Under the pieces are notes generated by a model. That model ran no database searches. It was not told the origin of the DNA and worked only from the letters and a program-made list of their open reading frames with translations. A program made the translations under genes and the position numbers. A stretch of DNA of 50,265 nucleotides from Pirellulales bacterium. Its GTDB lineage: Bacteria; Planctomycetota; Planctomycetia; Pirellulales; PALSA-1355. Within the stretch, counting starts at the first letter, position 1; each line of letters begins with the position of its first letter. Of this stretch, positions 22,731-29,822 are shown piece by piece. The stretch covers positions 257,236-307,500 of the forward strand of contig JALHMI010000002.1 in assembly GCA_022844125.1 (NCBI GenBank), given 5' to 3'.

Positions 22731-24845
22731 CTAAGCATCCGTACCCACCGGGGCCGGCGGCGTGACGGGCTTCTGATCTGGGCCAAGTCTTGGCGAGGCG
22801 GGAATTGGAGCACCACCAGCCGGTTGTCCGTCGGCGGGCTGCGCAGTGTGCGGTCGGGCGGGCATCCCCGCTTGAGCGGCGAAGATGTCGCGAAGTTTTT
22901 CCGCCCCCACATCGCGAGGTTCGATCACCAGCGCCGCATCCAGCTCACGTACGGCTTGCTTCGGATAGTTCAAGTAGCCGAAGTGAAAACCGAGCAGGAA
23001 CCGCACTGCCCCGTCGTCCGCTCGCGTGTCGCGAGCTTTCTCCGCCGCCCGCACCTGGTTGGTGTAATCCTCGATGTTGCCATAGAGCTGGGTGTAATTA
23101 CGAACAACATTGCCCCACTCGGTTTCCGGCAGCATTTGCATGCCCATTTGGGTCGCGTTTGCAGCCGACTCGTATTGGCCGAGCGCGAACAGGGCCTGAG
23201 ACATCAGGAGCACAACCGCGCCATTGTCCGGATCGTCGACCATTGAGTGTTGCCACAACCGAAGCGCGTCTTGATAGCGACCGGCGCGAAACGCCGCTTC
23301 GCCATCGGCCACAAAGTCGCCCGTGGTTGCCAACGGGTCGAGCGCCGGTTGCTGTGCTGGGGGAACAATCACGTCGGACGCGTCCGCGTAGAGCGTCGTG
23401 GTGGGATAAACGTAGGTAGTGTCGTAATACGTAGGAAGACCGAAACCGCCCCAACCGACGTTACTTAAGCCCCAGCCGAGCCCCCCAACCAATCCCCAGT
23501 TGTTCCAGCCGATGAGTGGCCACCCCCAACCCCAGGCCCAATTATTCCAGCCAGGGGTCCACCAGACATTTCGTCCGTAGCCCCACCAGCCACGGTTGCC
23601 TCCCCACCAGTTGTTATTCCAATGATTATTCCAGCCGTGGTTCCAGCTCCAATGATTATTCCAGCCGTGGTTCCAGCTGTTGCCCCACTGATTCCAACCG
23701 TGGCGGTTCCAATCGTTGCGACCCCAGTTGTTCTTTCCCCAGTCGCCGCGGTTCCAGTCGCTACGGCCCCAGTCTCCGCGGTTCCAGTTGTTGTTGCGAC
23801 TCCAGTCGCCCCGGTTTCCATCACGATTACCGTCGCCGCGGGCCCACTCGCCACGATTCCAGTCTCCGCGATTGCCATCGCCGCGGTTCCGATCCCCGCG
23901 ATCACGATCGCCGCGGCGAAAGTCATTGCCCCACGAACCTGGTCGTCCGTTACCGTCGCCTACGCGGATTGGGATTTTTGTCGTGCCGAAGTTGCGAGCG
24001 ACAAAATCGGAACGACTTCCGCCCGCGCGACCGGGAGTATCCGCCCCGACGGCATTGCCGCGTGATGGTCCTCGGCTGATGTTCCCGAGATTCTGGCGGT
24101 TGGCCTTGAACCGCTGCGTGGCGTTGCGCTGCGGCCCGCCGCGTTGTGCCAGATTGCTCGAGGACAGATTGCTCCTCGACGAGAAGTTACGATCGGCGAA
24201 GTTTCGCGATTCCGGCGAGCCGCCAGATCGCACCCTTGGATTCCCCAACGAATTTCGCCCGCCGCCGGGCGAAGCCAAACGGCCAGCACTGCCACGGTCG
24301 ATCGACCGTCCGAGACTACCAGCCGAGAAATCGCGCATGCTGGGCGAACGTGAGATCGAACTGGGAGTACGTCTCTCGCTCATCGACGAGCGACCGCCGG
24401 AACCGGAAAAACTCCGCACGCTGGGCGCAGAACTTCGAATCGGAGCGGAGAAGCTGCGCGAACTAGAGGGTGAACCGCCCGATCGGCCACCGAGATTCGA
24501 GGAAGAAAAACCACGCATGCTTGGGGCCGAGCCCCGTGACGCCGAGCCCCGTGACGCCGAGCCCCGTGACATCGACGAACCGCTGCCGCTTCGAGACACC
24601 GACGGACCGCCACCGCGCGAGGAGAAACTGCGACTTCCGCCGCCCCCACCGCCCATCGAGCGTGCTCCGCCGCCACCGCCACCCATTCGGGCTCCACCAC
24701 CGCCACCACCACCGCTGCTGCGACCACCACCTCCGCCGCCTCGGCTGCCGCCCCCTCGTTGAGCCCAGGCTGTGCTCTCAGGCAGCGCCAGCAGCACCGT
24801 CATGATGACCACGGTGGTCCACTTCCAGAAACTAGCGACTCTCAT
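22731..24845 (-). CDS. secreted Gly/Ser/Arg- and Trp/Asn-rich protein with C-terminal TPR domain
   Basis: 704 residues. Signal peptide of about 28 residues ending STAWAQ. Residues about 29-290 are Gly/Ser/Arg-rich with many GGGG and SRGSA units; one 15-base unit is repeated three times at 24531-24575. Residues about 300-400 hold RGDWNR/NRGDWG-type repeats, followed by a Trp/Asn/Gly-rich stretch to about 480 (NHGWNNHW units, repeated in DNA near 23625-23690). From about 515 to 650 is a normal TPR-like helical region, FVADGEAAFRAGRYQDALRLW being recognisable, with a Pro-rich tail. It is probably exported. The TPR part suggests protein binding; the rest could be a surface or matrix scaffold. No enzyme motif. 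Family function unknown. Confidence 0.8.
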   Translation of the reverse strand: MRVASFWKWTTVVIMTVLLALPESTAWAQRGGGSRGGGGGGRSSGGGGGGGARMGGGGGGARSMGGGGGGSRSFSSRGGGPSVSRSGSGSSMSRGSASRGSASRGSAPSMRGFSSSNLGGRSGGSPSSSRSFSAPIRSSAPSVRSFSGSGGRSSMSERRTPSSISRSPSMRDFSAGSLGRSIDRGSAGRLASPGGGRNSLGNPRVRSGGSPESRNFADRNFSSRSNLSSSNLAQRGGPQRNATQRFKANRQNLGNISRGPSRGNAVGADTPGRAGGSRSDFVARNFGTTKIPIRVGDGNGRPGSWGNDFRRGDRDRGDRNRGDGNRGDWNRGEWARGDGNRDGNRGDWSRNNNWNRGDWGRSDWNRGDWGKNNWGRNDWNRHGWNQWGNSWNHGWNNHWSWNHGWNNHWNNNWWGGNRGWWGYGRNVWWTPGWNNWAWGWGWPLIGWNNWGLVGGLGWGLSNVGWGGFGLPTYYDTTYVYPTTTLYADASDVIVPPAQQPALDPLATTGDFVADGEAAFRAGRYQDALRLWQHSMVDDPDNGAVVLLMSQALFALGQYESAANATQMGMQMLPETEWGNVVRNYTQLYGNIEDYTNQVRAAEKARDTRADDGAVRFLLGFHFGYLNYPKQAVRELDAALVIEPRDVGAEKLRDIFAAQAGMPARPHTAQPADGQPAGGAPIPASPRLGPDQKPVTPPAPVGTDA

Positions 24846-25094
24846 TTTACACGCCCCACCATCAGTTTGCCCGCGCCTGTCGCCGAAATCATTCTATGCA
24901 TCGCTTGAACCAAAAGGTTACAAAATCCCGCGTTACTCGCGGCGATTTCCTCAAATCGTGAATCTCGCAAGAGAATTGGTGGCGTCCGTATGCTCGGTGC
25001 GGCTTCGTTGCGATCCGATGCGTGATTCGCCTGCGATCAGTTGTCGCACAATTGACGGCGCGCGAATCCATTTCGCGGCACTTCCGCTGCCCCT

Positions 25095-25122
25095 TTGACG
25101 GGGCGACCTTCGTGCGTAAGAA
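25095..25122 (+). promoter_or_regulatory. predicted promoter of the SRP RNA gene
   Basis: TTGACG (25095-25100), 16-base spacer, TAAGAA (25117-25122). The predicted start near 25129 is about 10 bases before the base of the SRP RNA stem. The -35 box is good, the -10 box moderate. Confidence 0.45.
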
Positions 25123-25139
25123 TTGGTAAGCACCTCCTC

Positions 25140-25267
25140 GCGGCCTGGCGGCCTCCGATGAGAGGCCCTCGCAATGGGGACCTGCGAACCTGGTCAGGGA
25201 CGAAAGTCAGCAGCCATAAGCAGTCATCTCTTTGTGCGATGGGTCTCTCATCCGAGGTCGCTACCGC
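25140..25267 (+). ncRNA. ffs: signal recognition particle RNA, small (4.5S) bacterial type
   Basis: RNA core of the signal recognition particle, binding Ffh. The conserved helix 8 is evident: GGTCAGG (25192-25198), then stem GAC (25199-25201), tetraloop GAAA (25202-25205), stem GTC (25206-25208), then AGCAGCC. This matches the universal GGUCAGG...GGAA...AGCAGCC arrangement with a covarying three-pair stem. The flanks form one long imperfect hairpin: 25158-25164 pairs with 25245-25251, and 25140-25143 with 25264-25267. I see no Alu domain, so it is the small type of about 110-130 nt. Exact ends are approximate. The gene lies directly upstream of dnaX, as in many bacteria. Confidence 0.93.
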
Positions 25268-25320
25268 TTGGTCGCCATTCTGCCCCACGCTGCTTTGTGC
25301 ATGCCCCCTCTCGAGTTGCG

Positions 25321-27084
25321 ATGGCCGCTCCGGCTGGAAAACCTCCGATCGATAACTCAGCCGGTGACGCTCCCCGTTCCGGCGAGTACGTGGTCGTCGC
25401 CCGCCGCTATCGGCCCCAAGCGTTCGACGAGCTAATCGGCCAAGATCACGTCGCCCGAGCGCTGACAGGCGCCATCGCCGCCGGTCGAGTCGGTCACGCC
25501 TACCTGTTCACCGGTGCTCGTGGCGTTGGTAAAACCTCCTCCGCCCGGATTCTCGCCAAGTCGCTCAATTGCGTTCGTGGTCCGACGGCCACCCCCTGCA
25601 ACGAGTGCGAGATCTGCCGCGACATCACGGCCGGCGCAGACGTCGACGTCATCGAGATTGACGGCGCCAGCAACCGCGGCATTGACGAAATTCGCTCGCT
25701 CCGCCAGAACGTAAACGTCCGGCCGAGCCGGGCACGGTTCAAGATATACATTATCGACGAAGTCCACATGCTCACGCGCGAGGCTTTCAATGCCTTGCTC
25801 AAGACGCTCGAGGAGCCGCCCGAGCATGTGAAGTTCATTTTCTGCACGACCGAAGCATCGAAGATCCCGATCACGATCCTCTCGCGCTGCCAACGGTTCG
25901 ACTTCGCGGGGATTCACATCGCTTCGATCGTCGAGCGGCTCTCGCAGATCGTCGCGGCCGAGCGTGTCGAGGCGGAGCCCGAGGCACTCACCATCCTGGC
26001 TCGCCGGGCGGCCGGCTCGATGCGCGACAGTCAGTCGCTATTGGAGCAGATTCTGGCGATCGGTGGGGAGCGAATTACGGCGGCCGACGTCCATGCGCTC
26101 TTGGGCACGGCTGGTGAAGCTCGCTTGACCACGCTGGTCGATCACCTGCTCGGGCGCGATGCCGCGGCGGCCATCGCCGATCTGGATTCCGCCGCCAGTG
26201 AAGGCGTTGACGTCGGCCAACTGCTTGAACAACTCCTGGGCTACTTCCGCGACGTAATGGTCACTGCCGTCGGCTGCCCGGCCGAGGCACTGCTGCATAC
26301 CGCTCCTGCACAGCACGCGTACCTCGCGGAAGCGGGGCGACGAGCCGGGCTGGAAACCGTCTTGGCGATCATGCAGATCATCGATCACACCCTCTCGCGG
26401 ATGCGCTACAGTACGCAGTCGCGCACCCTGGTTGAAATGGCCCTGGTGCGGATCGCGAGTCTGGAGAACCTCGACGACCTCTCGGAGCTGATCCAGGGAC
26501 TGCAAACCGGCGGCCTGCCTGTATCAACCGGGACGATCAGGCCGAGCGCTACTCCCAACAGTGTCCCCGCGGTGTCCGATCTGGCAGCAAAAAAAAAAGC
26601 TGAGCCAGTCTCTCCCCAATTAGAGCCAGGGGACAGCGAGCCAGCGACGCCGCAATCATTAACCCCCGCCTCGCTACCGTCGGCCGAAGTGACGAGTGGG
26701 AATGCGAAACGCATCTGGGATGCCGCGCTCGCCAGCCTCGAAGGACTATTGCATCAAAACGCAGACTTCTGTGAAAGCGCAAGCGCGCCCGGCGGCAATC
26801 GGCTGGTCGCTACATTTCGCGCGAAGTATACTGCCTGCAGAGCTTTCTGCGAGCGGCAGGTAGCCGAGATTGAACAGGCACTTTTAAGCGTCGCGGGCGG
26901 CCATGTAAAGCTTGAGTTTGCCACGATTGCGGACGAACCCCAACAGGCCGCGGCCCAGGTACGCCGCGCGGCTCCGCACAGGCAGCGCGTGGCCGAACTG
27001 AAAGAGCACGCCATGGTTCGTCGAGCGACTGAATTATTCGATGCTCAAATCGTGCGTGTCGAAGATCCCGAAGCTGCGAACTGA
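25321..27084 (+). CDS. dnaX: DNA polymerase III subunits tau and gamma
   Basis: Clamp-loader ATPase and replisome organiser. 587 residues from ATG 25321; the open frame extends upstream to 25174, but that part lies over the SRP RNA. Domains: Walker A GARGVGKTSSARILAK, zinc module CNECEICRD preceded by Cys in LNCVRG, Walker B IYIIDEVHM, sensor/arginine-finger motif ILSRCQRFDF, then the clamp-loader collar to about residue 370. A Ser/Pro-rich linker starts near 400, and a C-terminal domain of about 140 residues follows. The linker holds a run of ten A residues (26589-26598) that probably yields a shorter gamma form of about 427 residues. It is followed after 31 bases by ybaB and then recR, the classic order. 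Confidence 0.97.
   Translation: MAAPAGKPPIDNSAGDAPRSGEYVVVARRYRPQAFDELIGQDHVARALTGAIAAGRVGHAYLFTGARGVGKTSSARILAKSLNCVRGPTATPCNECEICRDITAGADVDVIEIDGASNRGIDEIRSLRQNVNVRPSRARFKIYIIDEVHMLTREAFNALLKTLEEPPEHVKFIFCTTEASKIPITILSRCQRFDFAGIHIASIVERLSQIVAAERVEAEPEALTILARRAAGSMRDSQSLLEQILAIGGERITAADVHALLGTAGEARLTTLVDHLLGRDAAAAIADLDSAASEGVDVGQLLEQLLGYFRDVMVTAVGCPAEALLHTAPAQHAYLAEAGRRAGLETVLAIMQIIDHTLSRMRYSTQSRTLVEMALVRIASLENLDDLSELIQGLQTGGLPVSTGTIRPSATPNSVPAVSDLAAKKKAEPVSPQLEPGDSEPATPQSLTPASLPSAEVTSGNAKRIWDAALASLEGLLHQNADFCESASAPGGNRLVATFRAKYTACRAFCERQVAEIEQALLSVAGGHVKLEFATIADEPQQAAAQVRRAAPHRQRVAELKEHAMVRRATELFDAQIVRVEDPEAAN
26589..26598 (+). promoter_or_regulatory. dnaX: A10 run in dnaX, probable slippage/frameshift site producing gamma
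   Basis: The codons read GCA AAA AAA AAA GCT. One extra A in the transcript, or a -1 frameshift, gives AAA AAA AAA AGC TGA, an immediate stop after codon 427. Loss of one A gives a stop at TAG after ten further codons. A possible hairpin (TCCCC pairing with GGGGA) follows about 15 bases downstream. E. coli (ribosomal -1 frameshift) and Thermus (A9 transcriptional slippage) make gamma at the same place in the gene. Confidence 0.75.
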
Positions 27085-27115
27085 ACATCGTCGAAACCAC
27101 TTTGTGAGACTTCAC

Positions 27116-27493
27116 ATGTTCGAAGGACTCGGGAAACTCGCCAACCTCGGTAGCATTCTGAAACAGGCTCAACAAATGGGCGGCCGGCTGACGCGAATTG
27201 CCGACGAGCTCAAATCCAAGCGCGTCGAAGGCACTGCTGGCGGCGGACTGGTAACCGTCGAAGCCAACGGTGCCGGCGAGATTCTCTCCTGCCGTATCGA
27301 TCCTTCGCTGATCACCGGCGGCGACCGCGAGTTGATCGAAGACCTGGTGCCTGCAGCGATGAATCAGGCTCTGGCCAAGAGCCGCGAATTGCACGCCGAG
27401 GCCATGAAGTCGCTCACCGCCGGACTGGATATGCCGGGCATGAATGACATGCTATCACAACTTTCGGGGGGTAGTTCCGGAACTCAGGGCTGA
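27116..27493 (+). CDS. ybaB: YbaB/EbfC-family nucleoid-associated protein
   Basis: 125 residues from ATG 27116. The frame opens earlier, but the upstream text is over the dnaX end and unlike the family. Core motifs: LGSILKQAQQMGGRL, then GTAGGGLVTVEANGAGEI and the helical end LVPAAMNQALAKSRE. The family forms dimers that bind DNA with little specificity. The C-terminal 25 residues (LDMPGMNDMLSQL, Gly/Ser-rich end) are typical. It lies between dnaX and recR. Confidence 0.94.
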   Translation: MFEGLGKLANLGSILKQAQQMGGRLTRIADELKSKRVEGTAGGGLVTVEANGAGEILSCRIDPSLITGGDRELIEDLVPAAMNQALAKSRELHAEAMKSLTAGLDMPGMNDMLSQLSGGSSGTQG

Positions 27494-27580
27494 AGCCGGC
27501 TGGGCGGTTCCGCCAAGCGTGCTCCGCGAACCACCTCACAGGATCCCCACGCCTATCACCATTTTTAGGACAATTGCCGC

Positions 27581-28174
27581 TTGATCAGTGAATCGGTAAC
27601 CAGGCTGGTGGAGGAGTTCGCCAAGCTGCCGGGCATCGGCAAAAAGTCGGCCGAGCGGCTGGCCTACCATATTCTCAGGGTTCACCAATCGGAAGCATTG
27701 GCCTTGGCCGACGCCATCCGTCATGTGAAAGAAAACGTGCGGTACTGCCGAACTTGCTATAATCTCACGGAGCAGGACGAGTGTGAGATCTGCCGCGACG
27801 CGAAGCGGGACCGCAGCCAACTCTGCATCGTCGAGCAGCCGCGAGATCTACTGGCCCTCGAACAGCCAGGCACTTATCGCGGACTATATCACGTATTGCT
27901 CGGTAGGATCGCACCGCTGGATGGCGTGGGTCCGGAGAATTTGACCATCGAGGCGCTAGTCGAGCGGGTCCGGGGGGGCACGTTCCGCGAAGTGATCATG
28001 GCCACGAATCCGACCCTCGAAGGAGACGGAACGGCACTGTATATCTCGAACTTATTGGCCGGTTTGCCTGTGGAGATCACCCGGCTGGCCCGGGGCATCA
28101 CCAGCGGCAGCGTGCTAGAATTTGCTAACAAAGAGATTCTGGCTGACGCCCTGGCAGGTCGGCAGAAGTTCTAA
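27581..28174 (+). CDS. recR: recombination mediator protein RecR
   Basis: 197 residues, normal length. Acts with RecO/RecF to load RecA at gaps. The helix-hairpin-helix [17 protein letters not shown] is followed by a Cys4 zinc finger CRTCYN...CEICRD, then a TOPRIM domain with [15 protein letters not shown] and [15 protein letters not shown]. The end ([19 protein letters not shown]) holds the usual conserved C-terminal region. The start is TTG 27581 with AGGA (27567-27570) upstream. It closes the dnaX-ybaB-recR unit. Confidence 0.96.
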
Positions 28175-28289
28175 CGGAAAAACAAGCCTGGCCCGAGCAC
28201 ACGAACACAACAGCAAGATCTGCGCCAGCGAGCGTCGTCGCGTGACTAGCGCGAACGACCAGGTACACGACGGAACAAGTTGAACTTTC

Positions 28290-29822
28290 ATGCGACTTTC
28301 ATTTGGCCAGGAATTGCGATTGGTTCAGAAGCAGGTGCTTGCACCGCGGATGATCCAATCGATGGAAATCCTGCAATTACCGATCATGGCGTTGCAGGAG
28401 CGGATCGAGCAGGAGATCCAGGAAAACCCCGCGCTGGAACTCACCGAGGAGGACTCCGATCTTCCGGAGGAGCCCGTCGACATTGAAAACCCCGACGCGC
28501 CGAGCGAGGAAGAGCGCGAGCTGGTCGTCGATGAGAGCAAGAACAACGAGGACGACTTCGAACGCCTGCTGAACATGGACGAGGAGTTCCCCGACCAGTT
28601 CGAGGAACGTACCCGCCCGTCCAGCACGCGGATCGAAGAAGAAGGCGACCGCAAGCACGACGCGATGGCCAACATGGTCGCCCGGCCCCAGTCGCTGCAA
28701 GACTACCTGCACGATCAACTCGGCTGGTTCAACCTCGCCCCCGAACTCCGGGCGATGTGCGACCGCATCATCTACAACCTCGATGCCAATGGCTACCTGC
28801 AGTCGCGGCTCGAAGATCTGATCGATCCGAATTCTCCACCCGAGCAGTTGGTCCTGGCCCAGCGCGCGCTGGTGATCGTGCAGAAGCTCGACCCGCCGGG
28901 AGTCGCCGCCCGCGATCTGCGCGAGTGTCTGCTCCTGCAGCTCACGCCGGGCATGCCGCACTACGAACAACTCAAAACGATCATCTCCAGCCACCTGGAA
29001 GACCTCGAACACAATCGCCTGCCGGCCATCGAACGCAAGACGGGGTACTCGATCGCGCTCATCCAGGAAACGCGCGAAGAGCTGCGAAAGCTCAATCCCA
29101 AACCGGGCGCGAGCTTCGGCGAAGTCTTTGTGCCGAACGTGATTCCAGACGTATTTGTCGAACTCGGTGACGACGGCAAGTACCGCGTCCGGCTCGAGGA
29201 TGGCCGCACGCCCAAGCTGTACATCAGTCCGACGTACCGCAACATTCTGATGAGTGAGAAGACCAACGCCGAGACGCGCGAATACATCAAGCGGAAGATC
29301 AACTCCGCCCAGTGGCTCATCGAATCGATCGAGCAGCGACGCAACACGCTGACGCGTGTCGCCCAGGCGATCGTCGATCACCAGACCGAGTTCCTGAACA
29401 AGGGCCCCGAGTCAATCGAACCCTTGAAAATGCAGCAGATCGCCGACAAAGTTGGCGTGCATGTCACCACGGTCAGCCGGGCAGTCGACGACAAGTGGAT
29501 TCAAACCCCGCGCGGCATCTTTCCGTTGAAGCGGTTTTTCTGCGGGGGCACTGTGAGCGCCGATGGCGAAGAAGTCGCCTGGGATACGGTCCGCCTGAAG
29601 CTGCAGGAAATCATCGACAACGAGAACAAGCAGCACCCGCTCAGTGATGACGAACTCGTTCGCGAGCTCGGCAAGCACGGCCTCACGGTCGCCCGCCGCA
29701 CGGTGACCAAGTATCGCAAGGCGATGAACATTCCCAGCAGCCGCCAGCGGCGTGATTGGAGCGAAGGCCCGGACGGCGCCCCCGAGCCAGCCGCCACAAA
29801 CGGCCGTCACGAGGAAGAATAA
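28290..29822 (+). CDS. rpoN: RNA polymerase sigma-54 factor
   Basis: 510 residues. Region I: LSFGQELRLVQKQVLAPRMIQSMEILQLP in shape, Gln/Leu-rich and the enhancer-contact part. Region II (about 50-115) is strongly acidic. Core-binding region from about 130; helix-turn-helix MQQIADKVGVHVTTVSRAVDD; and the RpoN box ARRTVTKYRKAMNIPSS near the C terminus (canonical ARRTVAKYRE). The last 20 residues are a variable tail. The start at ATG 28290 has GGAAC some distance upstream. No enhancer-binding protein or PTS-type genes lie next to it, unlike proteobacteria. Confidence 0.97.
   Translation: MRLSFGQELRLVQKQVLAPRMIQSMEILQLPIMALQERIEQEIQENPALELTEEDSDLPEEPVDIENPDAPSEEERELVVDESKNNEDDFERLLNMDEEFPDQFEERTRPSSTRIEEEGDRKHDAMANMVARPQSLQDYLHDQLGWFNLAPELRAMCDRIIYNLDANGYLQSRLEDLIDPNSPPEQLVLAQRALVIVQKLDPPGVAARDLRECLLLQLTPGMPHYEQLKTIISSHLEDLEHNRLPAIERKTGYSIALIQETREELRKLNPKPGASFGEVFVPNVIPDVFVELGDDGKYRVRLEDGRTPKLYISPTYRNILMSEKTNAETREYIKRKINSAQWLIESIEQRRNTLTRVAQAIVDHQTEFLNKGPESIEPLKMQQIADKVGVHVTTVSRAVDDKWIQTPRGIFPLKRFFCGGTVSADGEEVAWDTVRLKLQEIIDNENKQHPLSDDELVRELGKHGLTVARRTVTKYRKAMNIPSSRQRRDWSEGPDGAPEPAATNGRHEEE

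Follow-up and report, generated by a model that had tools for sequence, protein, structure and literature searches.

The dnaX locus and its product

The window, that is, the whole stretch of 50,265 bases analysed here, carries the genes for SRP RNA, dnaX, ybaB, recR, and rpoN in this order on the same strand. The small SRP RNA gene (RF00169; 25157-25255, plus strand; cmscan 64.7 bits against a gathering threshold of 40, E 3.2e-13) lies just upstream of dnaX (25321-27084, plus strand), which encodes the tau subunit of DNA polymerase III, a protein of 587 amino acids. Translation probably begins at the ATG at 25321, which follows the SRP RNA gene, since the longest open reading frame, from 25174, would overlap this gene. 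A search with Rfam at gathering thresholds over positions 24500-28500 returned nothing besides the SRP RNA. The next genes are ybaB/ebfC (27116-27493, plus strand; TIGR00103, 80.7 bits) and recR (27581-28174, plus strand; Pfam Toprim_4 and RecR_HhH). On the minus strand, positions 22731-24845 hold an open frame of 704 amino acids that is rich in G, R, S, N, and W, and whose C-terminal part differs in composition.

The identity of DnaX is supported by TIGR02397 (449 bits, cut-off 250) and NF004046 (473 bits), both above their cut-offs; the top-scoring model, NF011526, reaches 509 bits and stays below its own cut-off of 670. The protein matches solved tau/gamma chains, which we take to be those of E. 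coli, at an E-value of 3.5e-88, and its closest named matches are Planctomycetota, Pirellulales among them. The clamp-loader AAA+ domains I-III are recognized by Pfam (PF13177, PF22608, and PF12169), with domain III spanning residues 252-393 (26074-26499, plus strand; PF12169, 64.2 bits) and marking the end of the folded part that gamma would retain. It is followed by a linker predicted to be disordered (residues 399-453, 26515-26679, plus strand; AlphaFold2 pLDDT below 50) and by a C-terminal domain that AlphaFold2 predicts as folded, from about residue 462 to 573 (26704-27039, plus strand). The NF004046 match extends through residue 577. The C-terminal domain resembles that of E. coli tau (2aya) weakly (probability 0.96, E 0.02, TM 0.41), ranking sixth in the fold search behind SirA and DUF59 domains, and a profile of the tau C-terminus alone found no match among PDB sequences up to an E-value of 1. 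Gamma is the form of DnaX that holds the clamp-loader ATPase and lacks the C-terminal domain.

The A10 run and its predicted products

A run of ten A's, as proposed in the original prediction, is confirmed at 26589-26598 (plus strand) by the sequence itself, in the gene that the profile matches identify as dnaX. Within the codons GCA AAA AAA AAA GCT it extends from the third base of codon 423 through codon 426, and it sits in the disordered region 30 residues past domain III. This is the only homopolymer of at least eight bases of any kind in the window. The 6.44 Mb genome holds 10 separate A or T runs of at least nine (11 overlapping matches), and the dnaX run is the only one that reaches ten. 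Of the other nine (L181-L189), all A9 or T9, a few fall in long open frames, such as that of L187, with 1002 codons.

When one A is added in silico, translation meets the TGA at 26601-26603 (plus strand) and the product has 427 amino acids with the C-terminal end AAKKKS, in full agreement with the short gamma that had been predicted. The loss of one A or the addition of two (A9 and A12) leads to products of 433 and 434 amino acids, respectively, both ending in LSQSLPN before the TAG at 26621-26623 (plus strand). The earlier estimate that this TAG lies ten codons on was about right: it is the eighth codon past the run and the eleventh counted from the first AAA.

The mechanism proposed here is that RNA polymerase would, in a fraction of cases, add or drop A's at the run. 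Run lengths that keep the frame (10, 13, and so on) would be translated into tau, while other lengths would lead to a stop within 1-8 codons and thus to a gamma of about 427-434 residues, retaining clamp-loader domains I-III and losing the C-terminal domain. The predicted product of truncation at the run is, according to the domain and structure models, a complete clamp-loader ATPase minus the C-terminal domain, i.e. gamma-like. We infer that slippage takes place at the RNA step, at a rate that yields both forms, and that the cell produces gamma and puts it to use. The genome encodes tRNA-Lys with both UUU and CUU anticodons (ARAGORN on the best 30 of 47 tRNA matches).

Synonymous codon shuffling of the window's dnaX alone gives a run of nine or more A's in 7% of the shuffles, which is modest evidence on its own, so the case rests on the relatives.

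Conservation of the run in relatives

In the window's order, dnaX was found in 182 of 196 genomes, and 132 of these genes were read: 32 loci that came from searches (28 of them best-scoring) and 100 picked to spread over genera, a choice that left out numerous further members of genera already well represented, as well as a few genes located at the ends of contigs. The set for the phylum comprised 139 genomes, 129 with dnaX, and 108 genes were read of the 127 lying outside the order set. For the sister order, dnaX was read in 31 of the 41 genomes that have it. Run lengths were taken from the assemblies, many of them in hundreds of contigs.

A linker run of 9-11 A's is present in 105 of the 132 genes of the order (A9 in 67, A10 in 35, and A11 in 3), and run-bearing genes occur in 18 of the 19 families read. 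The remaining 27 genes have a longest A run of 2-5 in 24 cases and of 7 in three; runs of exactly six or eight were found in none of the 132 within the linker stretch examined, and L083 has an A8 near the 3' end of dnaX, beyond that stretch. One of the genes counted as lacking the run (L128) lies on a contig that ends before the run position, and thus 26 assessable genes without it remain, indicating that the proposed slippage route to gamma can be lost. Family f17 has 15 such genes among its 31. Domains I-III of the same genes have a longest A run of only 2-7, and the median G+C content of the run-bearing genes is 0.62.

The sister order keeps an A9 or A10 in 29 of 31 genes, with none in the other two, and several of the run holders are single-contig genomes. 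The run, whose presence in relatives had been named as a check, is therefore far from absent among them. Runs of nine or more occur in 15 of the 108 other Planctomycetota genes, six belonging to the sister order and nine spread over eight families. A separate sample of 80 named dnaX genes has such runs in 7 of 11 Planctomycetota versus 4 of 69 others. The named Planctomycetota with the run include Aporhodopirellula aestuarii (A10) and Gemmata sp. IIL30 (A9), and those without it are Candidatus Anammoximicrobium, Candidatus Scalindua, and two unnamed MAGs; the A9 runs outside the phylum belong to one Ignavibacteria, one Verrucomicrobia, and two Bacteroidetes MAGs. On a FastTree phylogeny of 240 DnaX cores, run presence requires 24 changes, compared with 79 when the labels are shuffled. 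Members of family f62 (L156, L165, L167, L170, and L171; G+C 0.43-0.50) have an A8 in or past the linker in all five dnaX genes read.

Selection on the nucleotide run

The 105 runs of the order start in codon phases 0, 1, and 2, with at least 20 changes of phase on the tree among run holders, and are followed by C in 56 genes, G in 37, and T in 12. They lie 1 to 65 residues beyond the end of the aligned core and encode 25 different peptides. Synonymous shuffling (200 shuffles) leaves a run in a mean of 10.9 and a maximum of 18 genes, as opposed to 103 of 129 observed, a result on which both chance and a patch of lysines kept at the protein level were rejected. The share of AAA among lysine codons outside the run is 39%.

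In the frame entered with one added A, a stop follows the run at a median of 2 codons, and within 10 codons in 97 of the 105 genes, against 19.7% at other linker positions; for the frame entered with one lost A the median is 5 codons, and the stop falls within 10 codons in 82 of 105, against 22.2%. In 77 of the 105 genes a stop closes each of the two frames within 10 codons, as compared with 4.4% at other positions of the same linkers. A ribosomal -1 shift requires a stop in the added-A frame only, whereas slippage adding one or two A's requires both. Across the genes compared, it is the nucleotide run rather than the encoded peptide that appears conserved, and the site is, on this comparative evidence, under clear selection.

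Absence of enriched ribosomal stimulators

Shine-Dalgarno (SD)-like motifs precede the A9+ runs of the order in 9 of 105 genes versus 8.3 expected, or in 14 versus 11.2 when GGGA is included, and none is found within 40 bases upstream of the window's A10. RNA folding downstream of the run gives a mean z of -0.09 versus -0.18 in control windows (104 genes). With another control range, the values are 9 versus 10.9 expected for SD-like motifs and -0.07 versus -0.16 for the fold. The presence of a stimulatory SD or stem-loop of the E. coli kind at the A-run genes was thus rejected, as neither is enriched. The same tests applied to family f23 of the phylum detect SD-like motifs in 17 of 29 genes versus 3.4 expected (21 versus 3.8 with GGGA) and a fold z of -1.39 versus 0.27, so under identical settings both tests have power.

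The frame of the tau C-terminus

In some relatives only a change of frame joins the tau C-terminus to the rest of the protein, and the run stands at the joint. These cases were recognized with a profile made from the tau C-termini of 207 full-length genes, which recovers frame 0 in 198 of them and has no match in 9. The clearest set comes from g72, a genus of the window's order with dnaX in 17 of 20 genomes, all 17 carrying an A10 (12 genes) or an A11 (5 genes). Here the tau C-terminus is in frame 0 in ten genes, in +1 in four, and in -1 in two (L066 is one of these six frame-shifted members), and one gene is cut by a contig end. The +1 genes include three species that share one arrangement (L429, L431, and L438), making it unlikely that these cases are single assembly errors. 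Outside this genus, the tau C-terminus of L032, L219, and L261 is likewise out of frame, the change falling at an A10 or A11 run, although the A11 of L032 may be a single-base assembly error, since two congeners have an in-frame A10. According to PMC3711429, ribosomal frameshifting conserves the direction of the shift, while transcriptional realignment does not necessarily do so. The direction is not conserved in g72, which by this rule points to realignment.

Alternative explanations

The most serious competitor is ribosomal -1 frameshifting at A_AAA_AAA, comparable to that at A_AAA_AAG in E. coli dnaX, which would make gamma from uniform transcripts. The run of the window does contain this heptamer in frame, and its -1 frame hits TGA at once, as in E. 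coli; across the order the -1 frame also has the nearer stop, and family f23 appears to use A_AAA_AAA. However, the order keeps 9-11 A's in any phase, with seven in only three genes and eight in none, and the run precedes C in more than half of its holders. Neither SD nor hairpin is enriched, stops are enriched in the +1 frame too, and tau is found in +1, -1, and 0 within a single genus, so that we regard a ribosomal -1 shift as unlikely. A related possibility is that ribosomes slide in either direction on consecutive AAA codons, giving gamma from unchanged RNA. E. coli ribosomes have been reported to enter several frames on iterated AAA (PMC4363877), and such sliding could be blind to register as well. 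Sliding should, nonetheless, track the number of in-frame AAA codons, and the threshold seen is nine A's in every phase: an A8 in phase 0 equals an A9 in phase 2 in AAA codons, yet no linker A8 occurs among the 132 genes of the order. This makes sliding a very unlikely source of gamma.

It could also be thought that the run is a mere lysine-rich patch of the linker or a chance homopolymer, with no second product at all. Every one of the 105 runs encodes at least two lysines, and 26 assessable relatives do without a run. The excess over synonymous shuffles, the diversity of the encoded peptides, and the strong enrichment of stops in both other frames speak against this reading, as do L032, L219, L261, and the six g72 members, where tau C-terminus and gamma are in different frames; it is thus extremely unlikely. 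The A10 is, by contrast with these alternatives, probably a selected RNA polymerase slippage site from which tau and gamma would both be made out of one gene. Slippage as the probable route, put forward in the original prediction, now has comparative support in the run of nine or more in any phase, the stops in both frames, the lack of enriched stimulators, and the three tau registers of g72. The suggestion that dnaX with two products extends to planctomycetes is backed in the same manner by the conservation of the run and by short products that end just past domain III.

Other candidate dnaX recoding in the phylum

Besides the A-run genes, three families of the phylum appear to end or join DnaX in other ways. 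Family f23 (L399-L428) provided 29 readable dnaX genes of 30 found in 31 genomes. Here frame 0 encodes gamma, and tau follows in the -1 frame after A_AAA_AAA (24 genes), G_GGA_AAA (4), or C_CCA_AAA (1), with an A run of exactly 7 in 24 genes and of 4 in five. The heptamer ends 0-1 codon ahead of the zero-frame stop in 27 of 29 genes, near codons 372-400 of dnaX. The placing of tau in the -1 frame is based on the match of these frames to the tau C-terminus profile (hhalign probability 98.8). Judged by these features, together with the SD-like motif and the downstream structure, the family looks like a case of ribosomal -1 frameshifting with the products swapped, gamma being the default.

Family f30 (L380-L396 and L398) has 18 readable dnaX genes of 19 found in 23 genomes, without a long A run. 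All 18 hold an in-frame C_CCN 1-5 codons ahead of a stop that closes the zero frame where domain III ends, with strong structure directly past the stop (z -2.57 versus -0.10). In 15 of the 18 genes the -1 frame runs on for at least 80 amino acids, and it matches the tau C-terminus with an hhalign probability of 98.2. C_CC.U and C_CC.C are listed as shift-prone tetramers in E. coli by PMC4066793, and the combination of C_CCN, stop, and hairpin is possibly a new dnaX frameshift signal. Readthrough of the stop codon was considered for this family and rejected, the tau part being in the -1 frame in five of the seven genes read first, those with a C-terminal match.

In family f43 (L224, L229, L231, L233, L234, and L236), DnaX stops 37-91 codons after the aligned core, in most cases with a tail like LKRxFGAR, and the tau C-terminus profile has no match in any frame of these six genes. 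The DnaX of this family is apparently gamma-only, to judge from these ends. A YbaB-like frame, judged by eye, follows dnaX in these genes.

Taken together, we see an even prospect that dnaX with two products is ancient in Planctomycetota and has outlasted repeated swaps of mechanism, with A9-A11 slippage in the window's class, -1 ribosomal frameshifting with SD and structure and with gamma as the default in one family, and C_CCN with stop and hairpin but no A run in another. If this were true, gamma would matter far beyond E. coli and Thermus, and selection would be keeping the product and not the mechanism. It has long been asked if gamma is anything beyond an oddity of a few bacteria, and a 2012 review (PMC3290774) states that most bacteria besides enterobacteria and Thermus keep no dnaX frameshift signatures and may not make gamma. 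Most sampled members of the order and its sister order keep the putative slippage site, and other candidate recoding signals stand at the same place elsewhere in the phylum. The need for gamma thereby becomes testable in culturable planctomycetes, and the runs offer a natural series of presumed slippage sites in G+C-rich genomes.

Comparison with known systems

The dnaX gene of E. coli makes gamma by -1 programmed ribosomal frameshifting at A_AAA_AAG, with an SD and a stem-loop. The gene described here resembles it in that the predicted gamma of the -1 frame terminates one residue beyond the run and at the same place after domain III, and differs in that SD and hairpin are not enriched in its order, the run is longer and in any phase, stops occupy both frames, and the shift direction is not conserved.

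Slippage is known for dnaX from Thermus thermophilus (Larsen et al. 2000, as cited in PMC1088944 and PMC5009743). As these accounts describe it, that gene shares with the present one an open frame that encodes all of tau, a run of at least nine A's late in the gene, stops in both other frames, and two lysine tRNAs in the genome, the last of which may explain the use of polymerase slippage in Thermus (PMC5009743). The threshold of nine seen in the order also fits the reports in these two papers. On the other hand, the present gene belongs to another phylum, has ten A's rather than nine, and is known from sequence alone. Its run stands relatively earlier, at residue 423 of 587 as compared with seven-eighths of the gene in Thermus, the E. 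coli position being given as two-thirds (PMC5009743). The claim that the end of gamma matches those of E. coli and Thermus is thus right for the architecture, with short products ending just past domain III, and not exact for the position in Thermus.

Slippage in dnaX is already known from Thermus, and two-ORF dnaX genes with 10 A's were already predicted by GeneTack (PMC3711429; nine 10-A genes appear in Figure S3). Among the open-licence PMC papers listed for this subject, judged by title and abstract, none reports dnaX slippage in planctomycetes. To the extent that this literature covers it, the breadth of the conservation, the finding of three registers in a single genus, and the proposed swaps of mechanism across the phylum look new. 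The GeneTack genes (PMC3711429) share the poly-A at the joint of gamma and tau with the genes studied here, and L032, L219, L261, and the six g72 members are like them also in that tau requires a shift. Unlike the GeneTack genes, the window and most of the order have tau unshifted, and g72 has both shift directions, whereas a shift of -1 at the DNA level is reported for the dnaX cluster of GeneTack.
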